A stretch of 64,000 nt of DNA, taken from NCBI GenBank assembly GCA_947499155.1, contig CANMND010000004.1, positions 202,633 through 266,632 of the forward strand, read 5' to 3'. This DNA comes from an uncultured Sphingomonadales bacterium. Lineage in GTDB: Bacteria > Pseudomonadota > Alphaproteobacteria > Sphingomonadales > Rhodothalassiaceae. Shown one piece after another: positions 50,551 through 53,928 of the stretch. The notes beneath the pieces are model-generated. The model made no database searches. It was not told the origin of the DNA and saw only the letters and a program-made list of their open reading frames with translations. Each line of letters begins with the position of its first letter. The first letter of the stretch is position 1. The translations under genes were made by a program, and so were the position numbers.

Positions 50551-52602
50551 TTAGACCAGTTCGGCCATCATTTCCTCGAACATGGGGAAAGTGAGTGCCT
50601 GTGGGCCATCAGACAGGGCTTCTTCCGGCTTTGGATGAAACTCAACAATGATCCCGTCCGCACCGACGGCTTTGGCGGCTCTGACCATGGGGATGACCAT
50701 ATCGCGACGACCGACAGCATGGCTTGGGTCAACTACAACTGGCAAATGGCTCATCTGCTTCAGCAAGGGGACAGCGGACAGGTCAAGGGTATTGCGTGTC
50801 GCAGGCTCAAAGGTGCGGATACCACGTTCACACAGGATCACCTGACGATTGCCCTCGGACAGGATATATTCTGCCGCCTGCAGTAATTCATCCAAAGACG
50901 CCATCATGCCACGCTTCAGAAGCACCGGGCGGTTGGCACGGCCCACCAGTCTCAGCAGCGGGAAGTTTTGCATATTGCGGGCACCGATCTGCAAAATATC
51001 GGATTTTTTCGCGACTTCTGTTACCTGATCCGGCGCAAGCACCTCTGTTATAATCGGCAGGCCATGGCGGTCACCTGCGGCTTTCAGCAGATCCAGGCCT
51101 TCATAGCCCAAACCCTGGAAGCTGTATGGGTTAGTACGAGGCTTGAAGCAGCCACCTCGTAAAATTGTGGCCCCATGAGCGCGGACATGCTCAGCGCAAT
51201 CCATCACCTGTTCTTCTGACTCGACGGAACAAGGCCCCGCCATCACAGTGAAGCCTTCACCAATTACAGCATTCCCGACCCGAATGATCGTATTGTCAGG
51301 CTTATGGGCGCGGCTGCCCAGTTTCCAGCCCTTGGGAGCTGCAGCGACTTTTTTGTCTTCTGCTTTTTCGGGAGCCTTGGATTTAGGGCCTGACGCAGCC
51401 TTGACATTTTCACGCAACAGTTCGGCGGGTACTTCTGTCGGGATAACGTCTTCTGACGGATAACACCCCAGAACCTTGAGAAAGCGTGCACGCCGGGCAA
51501 GGGTATCCACGGCTTCGACCATGATCTGATCCCGGATATTGCCAAGAAGATCGATATAAAACAGCTCTTCCCACGGATTGCCATGGAGTGGCCGCGATTC
51601 AAGCTTCAGCATATTTATGCCCTGGTCGCGAAATACCGTAAGGGCATCGACGAGAGCGCCAGGCTTCTGGTCAACAGAAATCATCAGAGTGGTCTTGGCC
51701 GGCACTGTTTCTGGAACATGGGCAGGTTTGCGTGCAACAACAATGAACCGGGTATGATTCTGGCGCTGATTGGCAAGGTCGCTCTTGATCTCAAACAGGC
51801 CCCATAGTGCCCCCGCTTCACGTGAGGCAATGGCTGCAGCACCACTTTTTGCACTGGCGGCCTTTTCAACTGCATGAGATGTGGATTCACAATAGATCAC
51901 ATCCACATCTCCCAGACGGGCGAGGAAATGACTGCATTGCGCATGAACCTGAGGATGAACATAAAGGGTTTTCACCTGACCCGGCAAAAGGCCGGCGTCC
52001 GCTGACAGCAGGCAATGCTCAATCTTGTGGGTCACCTCGCCGACGATGGAAAGTCCAGTGTGCTGCAACAGGTCATAGACATCGCTGATGCTGCCGGACG
52101 TGGTATTTTCAATTGGCAGGACCGCGTGATCAGCTTCGCCGCTTTCCGCCTTTTCCAGAACTTCTTCAAAGCTGTTGCAGCCGATCTCAACCAACTTGCC
52201 AGCGCGGCGGGTGAAATATTTGCGGCACGCCGCCTGACTGTATGATCCTTCGCCACCCAAATAGGCCACTCGGCGCAAGTCCGTTTCATCTTCTGAATTT
52301 TCGCGGGCATGAAGGCGGGCTTGTTGCAAGAGGACAGAATCCTCGATCACACCCTGGAACAATTTGGTCACCAGATGAGGGTCAAGGCCAAGGTCACGGC
52401 CCCGGCGGACCATGTCCACAAGACTTTGCCGTTCGATATCGCGGTCGCGCACCGGCCTGCCAGCCTGGATCTTGCTGTCCGCCACCTTAAGGCTGAGATT
52501 GCGGCGTGTCGCCAAAAGATCCAGAAGCTGTCGGTCGACATCGGATATAGTGCTTCTGGTTTTGTCGATATCATCGGCGGTGGTGGTTGTCGTGTTACTC
52601 AT
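50551..52602 (-). CDS. chorismate mutase - prephenate dehydratase - ACT - DAHP synthase fusion
   Basis: A 683-residue multifunctional enzyme for aromatic amino acid synthesis. Residues about 10-100 are an AroQ-type chorismate mutase (ISDVDRQLLDLLATRRNLSLKVADSK). Residues about 108-290 are prephenate dehydratase, with YLGGEGSYSQAA, ENTTSGSISDVYDLL and the catalytic TRF (NHTRFIVV). Residues about 300-375 are an ACT domain with GALVDAL and LESRPLHGNPWEELFY, the Phe-binding GALV and ESRP motifs. After a charged linker (about 395-430), a type I-beta DAHP synthase follows, with MAGPCSVESEEQ, GGCFKPRTNPYSFQGLG and VDPSHAVGRRD. ATG 52602 has GAGG upstream. The first three parts equal the E. coli P-protein; the fused DAHP synthase is unusual. 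An attenuator precedes it. Confidence 0.93.
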   Translation of the reverse strand: MSNTTTTTADDIDKTRSTISDVDRQLLDLLATRRNLSLKVADSKIQAGRPVRDRDIERQSLVDMVRRGRDLGLDPHLVTKLFQGVIEDSVLLQQARLHARENSEDETDLRRVAYLGGEGSYSQAACRKYFTRRAGKLVEIGCNSFEEVLEKAESGEADHAVLPIENTTSGSISDVYDLLQHTGLSIVGEVTHKIEHCLLSADAGLLPGQVKTLYVHPQVHAQCSHFLARLGDVDVIYCESTSHAVEKAASAKSGAAAIASREAGALWGLFEIKSDLANQRQNHTRFIVVARKPAHVPETVPAKTTLMISVDQKPGALVDALTVFRDQGINMLKLESRPLHGNPWEELFYIDLLGNIRDQIMVEAVDTLARRARFLKVLGCYPSEDVIPTEVPAELLRENVKAASGPKSKAPEKAEDKKVAAAPKGWKLGSRAHKPDNTIIRVGNAVIGEGFTVMAGPCSVESEEQVMDCAEHVRAHGATILRGGCFKPRTNPYSFQGLGYEGLDLLKAAGDRHGLPIITEVLAPDQVTEVAKKSDILQIGARNMQNFPLLRLVGRANRPVLLKRGMMASLDELLQAAEYILSEGNRQVILCERGIRTFEPATRNTLDLSAVPLLKQMSHLPVVVDPSHAVGRRDMVIPMVRAAKAVGADGIIVEFHPKPEEALSDGPQALTFPMFEEMMAELV

Positions 52603-52617: not shown

Positions 52618-52647
52618 AAAAAAAAGCCTCCCGGGGTCCGGAAGGCT
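52618..52647 (-). terminator. attenuator terminator directly before the pheA-aroF fusion
   Basis: On the minus strand AGCCTTCCGG (52647-52638) pairs with CCGGGAGGCT (52634-52625) over 10 bp including one G-U pair, with a 3-base loop, followed by eight T (52625-52618). It ends only 16 bp before the ATG of the fusion gene, so it can only make sense as a conditional terminator in the leader. Confidence 0.92.
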
Positions 52648-52705
52648 GCTCACTACATGTTATGCCGATGGTTTCTTTAGTCGGCGAACGGGTGCGCACC
52701 CTTCC
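52640..52705 (-). promoter_or_regulatory. predicted antiterminator pairing in the pheA-aroF leader
   Basis: GGAAGGGTGC (52705-52696), located in the leader-peptide codons just after the Phe/Tyr run, can pair with GCAGCCTTCC (52649-52640), the 5' arm of the terminator, over nine base pairs with one internal G-G mismatch. This would exclude the terminator. A competing local palindrome GGGTGCGCACCC (52701-52690) could protect the terminator arm. The roles of these pairings are inferred from complementarity only. Confidence 0.7.
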
Positions 52706-52760
52706 CTGTGGGGGGCGTATAAAAGAAGCCAAAATAGGTAAAGCTGCGCGAAATATTCAT
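52677..52760 (-). CDS. Phe/Tyr-rich leader peptide of the pheA-aroF attenuator
   Basis: A 27-residue frame that begins MNISRSFTYFGFFYTPPT and ends with TAA at 52679-52677. Six of eight consecutive codons (F-T-Y-F-G-F-F-Y) encode Phe or Tyr. It lies between a promoter and the intrinsic terminator upstream of the fusion gene that makes prephenate and phenylpyruvate. Stalling of the ribosome at these codons when Phe- or Tyr-tRNA is scarce would free the antiterminator strand. No ribosome binding site precedes the ATG; the predicted transcription start falls at or next to it, so translation from a leaderless mRNA is probable, as reported for the trpL leader of Sinorhizobium. Confidence 0.85.
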   Translation of the reverse strand: MNISRSFTYFGFFYTPPTGKGAHPFAD

Positions 52761-52767
52761 GAGTCGG

Positions 52768-52797
52768 ACCATATGGTTCCGAAATGGGTAATGTCAA
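52768..52797 (-). promoter_or_regulatory. predicted promoter of the pheA-aroF attenuator
   Basis: TTGACA (52797-52792) is a perfect -35; TATGGT (52773-52768) is a -10 with 4 of 6 matches, 18 bases further. The transcript should begin near 52760, at the leader-peptide ATG. The rest of the gap up to the divergent prolyl aminopeptidase gene (52924) shows nothing further. Confidence 0.7.
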
Positions 52798-52923: not shown

Positions 52924-53928
52924 ATGCCATCGTCTGTCAAAAACCTTGATCACACACCGGGCCAGCTTGGTCTTTATCCACCCGTTGAAAGCCACCATCA
53001 CGGATATCTGCCCGTCGGGGATGGTCATGCGCTTTATTATGAGCTGTCAGGCAATCCGAAGGGGCTACCTGTTGTGTTCCTCCATGGCGGTCCCGGTGGC
53101 GGCACCTCTCCCGTGCAGAGACGGTTCTTTGATCCACAGCGCTACCACATCATCCTGTTTGATCAGCGCGGTTGTGGTCGGTCGCGGCCCTTTGCAGGTC
53201 TTGAACATAACACCACGGCTCACCTGATTGCGGATATTGAAAAGCTGCGAACGCATCTTGCAATAGAGCGCTGGCATGTCTTTGGCGGCTCCTGGGGCAG
53301 TACGCTGGCGCTTTTATATGCGCAGGCCTTTCCGGATCGGGTTCTGGGTCTGGTTCTGCGTGGCATATTTTTGATGCGCCAATGTGAACTGGACTGGTTC
53401 TATAAATTTGGGACCAATGCGATTTTCCCTGATGCCTGGGAAGATTTTATCGCTTTTATCCCGCCCGATGAACGCTCAGACATAATTGCCGCCTATTACA
53501 AGCGTCTGACCGGGCCAGATGAAACCGTGCGCCTTGAAGCGGCGAGGAGTTGGAGCAGTTGGGAAAGCCGGTGTGTCACTCTTGTGCCGGATCCTCATCA
53601 GGTCAAGCACGCCCAAAATACTGAATTCGCAGTCGCCTTTGCCCGAATCGAATGTCACTATTTTTATCATCGGGGGTTTTTGGAATCGGATGACCAGATC
53701 TTGCGGAATGCGGGGCTGATTCAGCATATCCCCACAGTGATTGTCCAAGGCCGCTATGACGCAATCTGTCCGCCACGCGCCGCCTGGGACCTGAAAAATG
53801 CCCTGCCGGATGCACAATTAAAACTGGTGCCGGTGGCCGGTCATTCAGCGTTTGAAAAGCCTGTCATTCATGAACTGGTTACTGCGACGTCATCGATGGC
53901 GGACCTCTCATATGAGAGCTGGGCGTGA
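52924..53928 (+). CDS. pip: prolyl aminopeptidase (proline iminopeptidase)
   Basis: A 334-residue alpha/beta hydrolase that removes N-terminal proline from peptides. HGGPGGGTSP (near residue 54) forms the oxyanion hole, the nucleophile is Ser in FGGSWGSTLAL near residue 121, Asp lies in QGRYDAICPP and His in VAGHSAFE. FDQRGCGRSRP is the family signature. GGGAG six bases before ATG 52924 supports the start. It is divergent from the pheA-aroF leader and convergent with tldD. Confidence 0.94.
   Translation: MPSSVKNLDHTPGQLGLYPPVESHHHGYLPVGDGHALYYELSGNPKGLPVVFLHGGPGGGTSPVQRRFFDPQRYHIILFDQRGCGRSRPFAGLEHNTTAHLIADIEKLRTHLAIERWHVFGGSWGSTLALLYAQAFPDRVLGLVLRGIFLMRQCELDWFYKFGTNAIFPDAWEDFIAFIPPDERSDIIAAYYKRLTGPDETVRLEAARSWSSWESRCVTLVPDPHQVKHAQNTEFAVAFARIECHYFYHRGFLESDDQILRNAGLIQHIPTVIVQGRYDAICPPRAAWDLKNALPDAQLKLVPVAGHSAFEKPVIHELVTATSSMADLSYESWA

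Follow-up and report, generated by a model that had tools for sequence, protein, structure and literature searches.

What controls the expression of a gene that joins chorismate mutase (CM), prephenate dehydratase (PDT) and DAHP synthase (DAHPS) in a single protein, and why does the leader peptide encoded ahead of it contain tyrosine as well as phenylalanine codons? The gene in question lies in a 64,000 nt stretch of DNA (hereafter, the window), whose host shares its genus group with Iodidimonas muriae and strain Q-1. An original prediction held that the gene is preceded by a complete ribosome-mediated attenuator. The proposed parts span window positions 52797–52618 on the minus strand, ahead of the 683-amino-acid CM-PDT-ACT-DAHPS gene, and the promoter, the 27-codon leader, the strand GGAAGGGTGC and the hairpin with eight T were each recovered at the predicted position. 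In the direction of transcription, the features of the locus are:

52792–52797, minus strand: −35 box TTGACA; the same box is found in relatives, 36–37 nt 5' of the leader ATG
52768–52773, minus strand: −10 box TATGGT, with an 18 nt spacer from TTGACA
52767–52761, minus strand: gap of 7 nt between the −10 box and the leader ATG
52677–52760, minus strand: leader peptide open reading frame (ORF), MNISRSFTYFGFFYTPPTGKGAHPFAD; 27 codons plus stop, probably leaderless
52737–52749, minus strand: strand 1 (GCGCAGCTTTACC), predicted from minimum-energy folds to pair with strand 2 if no ribosome blocks it
52742–52719, minus strand: control codons F7, Y9, F10, F12, F13 and Y14, in the run F7-T-Y9-F10-G-F12-F13-Y14
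52696–52705, minus strand: strand 2 (GGAAGGGTGC), putative 5' half of the antiterminator, inside the leader ORF (folding models and a strand-pairing test)
52641–52650, minus strand: strand 3 (AGCAGCCTTC and neighbours), putative 3' half of the antiterminator, overlapping the 5' arm of the terminator
52618–52647, minus strand: intrinsic terminator with a 10 bp G+C-rich stem (AGCCTTCCGG/CCGGGAGGCT), a 3 nt loop and eight T (in the sequence, hairpin 52647–52625 and T run 52625–52618)
50551–52602, minus strand: fusion gene of 683 amino acids with CM, PDT, ACT and DAHPS domains

Fifteen nucleotides lie between the T run and the ATG of the gene (position 52602). The promoter is a consensus match only, of a kind that occurs six times in 6 kb (4.1 expected). 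The divergent neighbour (52924–53928, plus strand) appears, from a translation judged by eye, to be proline iminopeptidase-like.

The element was compared with chance by means of a fixed finder, which combines (i) a short ORF, (ii) the number of Phe/Tyr codons within nine codons, and (iii) a downstream terminator; all shuffles preserved dinucleotide composition. The window leader scores 6 (six Phe/Tyr codons in nine, plus terminator), a score reached by none of 20,000 shuffles of the upstream region (8 of these reached a score of 5, and 60 a score of 4). When tiled over both strands of the window, the finder returned this site and two others, both with a score of only 4; the latter were rejected as alternative leaders, one lying inside coding sequence and the other antisense to coding sequence. 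The 180 nt span also folds more stably than shuffled versions of itself (z = −3.12), of which one in 200 did as well. Among CM-PDT loci in general, a Phe/Tyr-rich ORF (four of nine codons) followed by a terminator was found at 103 of 172, compared with 0.17% of 1,720 shuffles. An Rfam scan of the window yielded no family at its gathering score; the Phe_leader model (RF01859), whose gathering score is 55, gave 18.9 bits, which leaves the element outside that family.

Can the parts act as a switch? Eleven leaders, from alpha- and gammaproteobacteria, were folded under a ribosome model in which the 13 nt in front of the A site are assumed to be masked. In all eleven, a ribosome placed at the first Phe/Tyr codon, with RNA that stops short of the terminator's 3' arm, gives the pairing of strands 2 and 3; in all eleven, a ribosome that has reached the stop codon leaves downstream RNA that folds into the terminator. 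In the window leader, the modelled 2:3 pairing is 0.64 for a ribosome at each codon up to T15, 0.34 at P16 and 0.06 at P17. All clustered Phe/Tyr codons are thus permissive for antitermination in the model, while the later F25 is not; Y9 and Y14 have the same value (0.64) as the Phe codons, so that both kinds lie within the permissive stretch. The end of the Phe/Tyr run coincides with, or falls just inside, the start of the drop in 2:3 pairing in all six family leaders. A mutually exclusive antiterminator and terminator, with well-placed control codons, is hence what the models give. The co-adaptation of antiterminator and terminator, which the original prediction proposed to look for in homologues, is supported by a pairing test, used in place of counting covariation on a leader alignment: with strands picked by eye after folding, six species allow 720 combinations, and the one that joins each species' own strand 2 to its own strand 3 came out best. 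At equilibrium, the full-length RNA of the window leader adopts the terminator even with a ribosome placed at codon 7 or 12; the decision must therefore be kinetic and made during transcription, as is usual for attenuators.

From this anatomy, a sequence of events can be proposed. Transcription would start at or adjoining the leader ATG, and a ribosome would begin on a leaderless or nearly leaderless mRNA, translating the Phe/Tyr run as RNA polymerase transcribes what follows. Under a shortage of charged tRNA-Phe (and perhaps of tRNA-Tyr), it would stall at codons 7–14 and cover strand 1; strand 2 would then pair with strand 3, the terminator's 3' arm not yet having been synthesised, and the gene would be transcribed. 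A ribosome that reaches codon 16 or further would instead cover strand 2, and the terminator would form.

The leader, its Phe/Tyr run and the switch are conserved in homologues. The family (Iodidimonadaceae) is represented by seven genomes: five with the triple fusion, one (G013) with a CM-PDT gene that has no DAHPS, and one (G036, 64% complete) with no match. A Phe/Tyr leader precedes all five fused genes, which is the outcome that the original prediction had called for. Besides the window's, these are the leaders of Q-1 (G026; MNRKICSFYFGFFFTPPIREVANPFGC, with a single Tyr), I. muriae (G020; MIMQRSFFYFGFYFTSPTGEVV), G006 (MSRSRSYYYFGIFTFRPCGGSRCRSSAIQL) and G031 (MSSIRTFYFGRFYFFRPAGGRDRPSSASML); that of the unfused gene in G013 (locus L008; MDVKMTSARLGFFAFFTGFPQGGAG) is Phe-only. 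The tripeptide Y-F-G is invariant in the five fused-gene leaders, its codons changing only synonymously (TAT/TAC, TTT/TTC, GGC/GGG/GGT), and the flanking codons differ.

With the shuffle test, the folding models and conservation all in its favour, we consider it highly probable that the element is a ribosome-mediated transcription attenuator of the CM-PDT-DAHPS gene. It is the switch itself that the folding models and conservation show; stalling, termination and the response to amino acids are inferred. Sensing of Phe by the leader is very likely; sensing of Tyr is plausible, with about an even chance.

Of the 170 gammaproteobacterial genomes with a match, 150 were fetched. Those counts below that are given for 78 genomes leave out 29 of the 103 loci scoring at least 4 for the leader, and keep 4 loci with a score of 3. 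Those left out are (i) two duplicates of family loci, (ii) ten Alteromonas-group loci (all Tyr-less, one a duplicate), (iii) 14 near-duplicates (all Tyr-less), (iv) one partial contig (Tyr-less), and (v) the doubtful Tyr-bearing ORFs L152 and L218. Three loci from the Alteromonadaceae search set (L046–L048) have no such leader. TyrA and CM states were read by hand from search tables, an equal open-frame length at neighbouring places being taken as a fusion.

A first property of these loci is the short distance between promoter and leader. Since only 7 nt separate the window's −10 box from the leader ATG, the mRNA probably starts at or next to the ATG, with a predicted 5' end at ~52761–52760, and is probably leaderless; the best match to AGGAGG 5' of this ATG covers three of six positions. 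The gap is 6–7 nt in all six Iodidimonadaceae leaders (two of them counted from a hand-chosen upstream ATG). By a simple promoter score, a −10 box lies 5–9 nt before the leader start in 42 of the 78 leaders, as opposed to 1.7% in shuffled sequence; in another 23 it lies 20–45 nt before the start, and E. coli-type leaders (MKLTPFFFAFFFTFP) belong here. The 42 short-gap leaders (e.g., L076, L108, L136 and L209) include all six from the family and many that are Alteromonas- or Shewanella-like. A leaderless start is thus likely for about half of the surveyed pheA leaders. Leaderless translation is usually considered rare in gammaproteobacteria; among the Alteromonas- and Shewanella-like members of this class, leader mRNAs of this kind may be common. 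In those portions of the literature on leaderless attenuators and pheL leaders that were available to us, no description was recognised for pheA; the Vitreschak 2004 survey of proteobacterial attenuators may already list some of the leaders.

The second property concerns the gene itself. The fusion protein consists of chorismate mutase (residues 16–94), prephenate dehydratase (112–293), ACT (304–367) and type I-beta DAHP synthase (~425–683) domains. The DAHPS part can be aligned over its whole length to the Thermotoga maritima enzyme (1rzm), and the residues matching the metal ligands, at positions which we take to be those of the ligands, are present together with other conserved active-site residues. 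A C-terminal DAHPS-like domain occurs in 46 of the 172 loci, 39 of them gammaproteobacterial. The ligands are intact in ten of the 46 (eight genomes, after removal of two duplicates), namely in the window's family and in three gammaproteobacterial genomes; the other 36 are without intact ligands. (The latter comprise L079, L096, L108, L113–L115, L117, L119, L132, L138, L148, L194, L195 and 23 more loci.) Many genomes nevertheless preserve the reading frame of the ligand-less gammaproteobacterial domain, which may be kept in a non-catalytic, perhaps regulatory, role rather than be a decaying pseudogene. For two of its activities the fusion has counterparts in the window genome, which also encodes a second prephenate dehydratase and a type II DAHPS. 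No other chorismate mutase of the CM_2 type was found in that genome, and a search for an AroH-type enzyme found none.

The gene, including its switch, appears to have come from elsewhere. Outside the family, genomes of the host order match only the dehydratase part (~30–39% identity) or DAHPS. Among 385 genomes of the class, a search for other alphaproteobacterial fusions returned, besides the window's own, two matches that passed E 1e-70, both to the DAHPS part only. Alteromonadaceae CM-PDT proteins, on the other hand, match the window protein at 54–58%. In a tree of the 78 CM-PDT proteins the family falls among gammaproteobacterial entries, with an SH-aLRT value of 92 for the group that it forms with Alteromonas-like proteins; the DAHPS parts of G737 and G692 are the ones with which those of the family cluster, at a weak 81. 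This suggests transfer from gammaproteobacteria, the direction being deduced from a tree that is midpoint-rooted and has no alphaproteobacterial outgroup.

We now turn to the Tyr codons. A TyrA match at E 0.001 is absent from ten of the 78 genomes (the window's, I. muriae and eight gammaproteobacteria), and TyrA without chorismate mutase is found in five (G026, G006, G031, G013 and G692). Tyr occurs within the Phe run in 14 of these 15 genomes without a CM-TyrA fusion, compared with 2 of the 63 that have CM and TyrA in one open frame (Fisher p 1.7e-12). The counts are phylogenetically clumped: they involve three changes of TyrA state, four changes of Tyr state and one to three independent pairs, so that with about three evolutionary events behind them the statistics cannot settle the rule, and no significance is attainable. 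The one exception among the 15 is G013, the family member with an unfused CM-PDT, whose leader is Phe-only even though its TyrA has no CM and its only CM is in PheA. A second chorismate mutase in G006 and G031 also speaks against the rule. There are two reverse exceptions, G863 and G850, with Tyr codons beside a CM-TyrA fusion; in G771, a single Tyr lies outside the run.

Our reading of these patterns is that Tyr codons are kept where tyrosine would be made via this protein (i.e., where there is no TyrA, or TyrA without CM), and not on account of the DAHPS fusion. In its general form, pheA leader codons would record the tyrosine route of the cell: where a separate CM-TyrA exists, only Phe is sensed, and where tyrosine has to pass through PheA (with a TyrA that lacks CM, or with no TyrA and hydroxylation of Phe), Tyr codons join the run and both Phe and Tyr are sensed, from a leaderless mRNA. 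We advance this general form tentatively, as a real but minority prospect. Synthesis of tyrosine from phenylalanine without TyrA is described for Dyella japonica and proposed for Legionella (PMC7311316). The absence of a TyrA match applies to the whole window genome (G000) and to I. muriae; the congener Q-1 has one. A phenylalanine hydroxylase motif was sought in 680 kb of contig stretches and the 64 kb window (744 kb of 2.81 Mb, ~26%) and was not found there.

The strongest competitor is that the same attenuator senses Phe only. The Tyr codons would then be neutral, one base removed from Phe codons, in a run that needs only to be slow under Phe shortage. The single Tyr of the Q-1 leader and the Tyr codons of the two gammaproteobacterial genomes possessing CM-TyrA fit this idea, as does the Phe-Tyr-Phe leader AroR of Corynebacterium glutamicum, which is reported, in a review, to respond to Phe and not to Tyr (PMC11802643). 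However, one Tyr position (that of Y-F-G) is invariant in all five fused-gene leaders of the family, and drift alone does not predict the split by CM-TyrA state, few though the underlying events are. We rate Phe-only sensing a little short of an even prospect.

Less survives of the reason first offered, that Tyr codons are present because the fused DAHP synthase makes the enzyme feed both products. Within the family it holds, all five fused genes having Tyr in their leaders and the single unfused one having none, and Tyr is in the run in seven of the eight genomes with intact-ligand fusions. Across the 78 genomes, however, the run contains Tyr in 8 of the 30 fused genes and in 8 of the 48 unfused ones (Fisher p 0.39): 22 of the 25 fused gammaproteobacterial genes have no Tyr there, while in eight genomes gammaproteobacterial genes without DAHPS have Tyr leaders all the same. 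In addition, the leader is Phe-only in G756 (L095), a genome that combines CM-TyrA with a fused DAHPS that is intact. Fusion as the main reason was therefore rejected; since the intact fusions mostly have Tyr, we retain it as an unlikely rival. Tyr codons appear to track the lack of a CM-TyrA fusion much better than they track DAHPS. Nor is uniqueness of the gene or of its dual leader supported: 39 of the gammaproteobacterial loci fetched have a DAHPS-like domain, the fusion of a DAHPS I-beta domain to the CM-PDT C terminus is already in print for Shewanella oneidensis (PMC1173090), and Phe/Tyr leaders also precede unfused gammaproteobacterial pheA genes.

Being the sole chorismate mutase of the cell was likewise rejected as a reason, given that G013 has a sole CM and no Tyr codons, while G006 and G031 have two CMs and Tyr codons. 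Finally, a plain terminator or processing site next to a chance short ORF, with any regulation not acting via translation, could appeal to the lack of an Rfam family at gathering score, but is very improbable in the face of the shuffle test, the synonymous conservation of the codon run, its fixed position relative to strand 2 and the own-strand pairing.

The element is real and conserved, and by design a classical ribosome-mediated attenuator. Its combination of Phe/Tyr codons, a probably leaderless start and a triple-fusion gene is new, and its principle is ordinary; a further example of a textbook switch is no surprise. What may prove useful is the comparison across many pheA leaders, which lets codon content be read alongside pathway wiring; G013, G863 and G850 are the clear exceptions. 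If the proposed link between leader codons and tyrosine route is true, (i) a few leader codons would reveal the amino acids for which an enzyme is needed, and leaders could predict missing tyrosine routes, and (ii) the window gene would be a compact model, in which a single promoter and a single leaderless leader serve one protein that carries the first shikimate step and two post-chorismate steps.

Among known systems, the pheA/pheL attenuator (RF01859), found in Escherichia coli and further gammaproteobacteria, has the same control-codon leader, competing antiterminator and terminator, and CM-PDT gene. The attenuator in the window differs from it in that (i) the leader has Tyr besides Phe codons, (ii) the gene is extended by DAHPS, (iii) there is no Shine-Dalgarno site, and (iv) the start lies 7 nt after the −10 box, versus ~26–36 nt in enteric-type leaders. 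A leader mRNA that begins with the leader ATG, as predicted here, has been described for trpL of Sinorhizobium meliloti (PMC7298713) and for several attenuator leaders of Streptomyces lividans (PMC8079986); these concern other amino acids and genes, and their 5' ends are measured, whereas that of the window is predicted. AroR of C. glutamicum, likened to the window leader by description and not by sequence, places Phe-Tyr-Phe codons before the DAHP synthase gene aroF and acts by ribosome-mediated attenuation; it differs in belonging to another phylum, in preceding a separate DAHPS gene and in its reported response to Phe rather than Tyr. The gene has its nearest counterpart in aroQ-pheA-aroA(I-beta) of S. 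oneidensis, with the same C-terminal fusion of DAHPS I-beta to CM-PDT. The DAHPS domain of S. oneidensis is called a pseudogene in PMC1173090, whereas the window's family and three gammaproteobacterial genomes keep the metal ligands.
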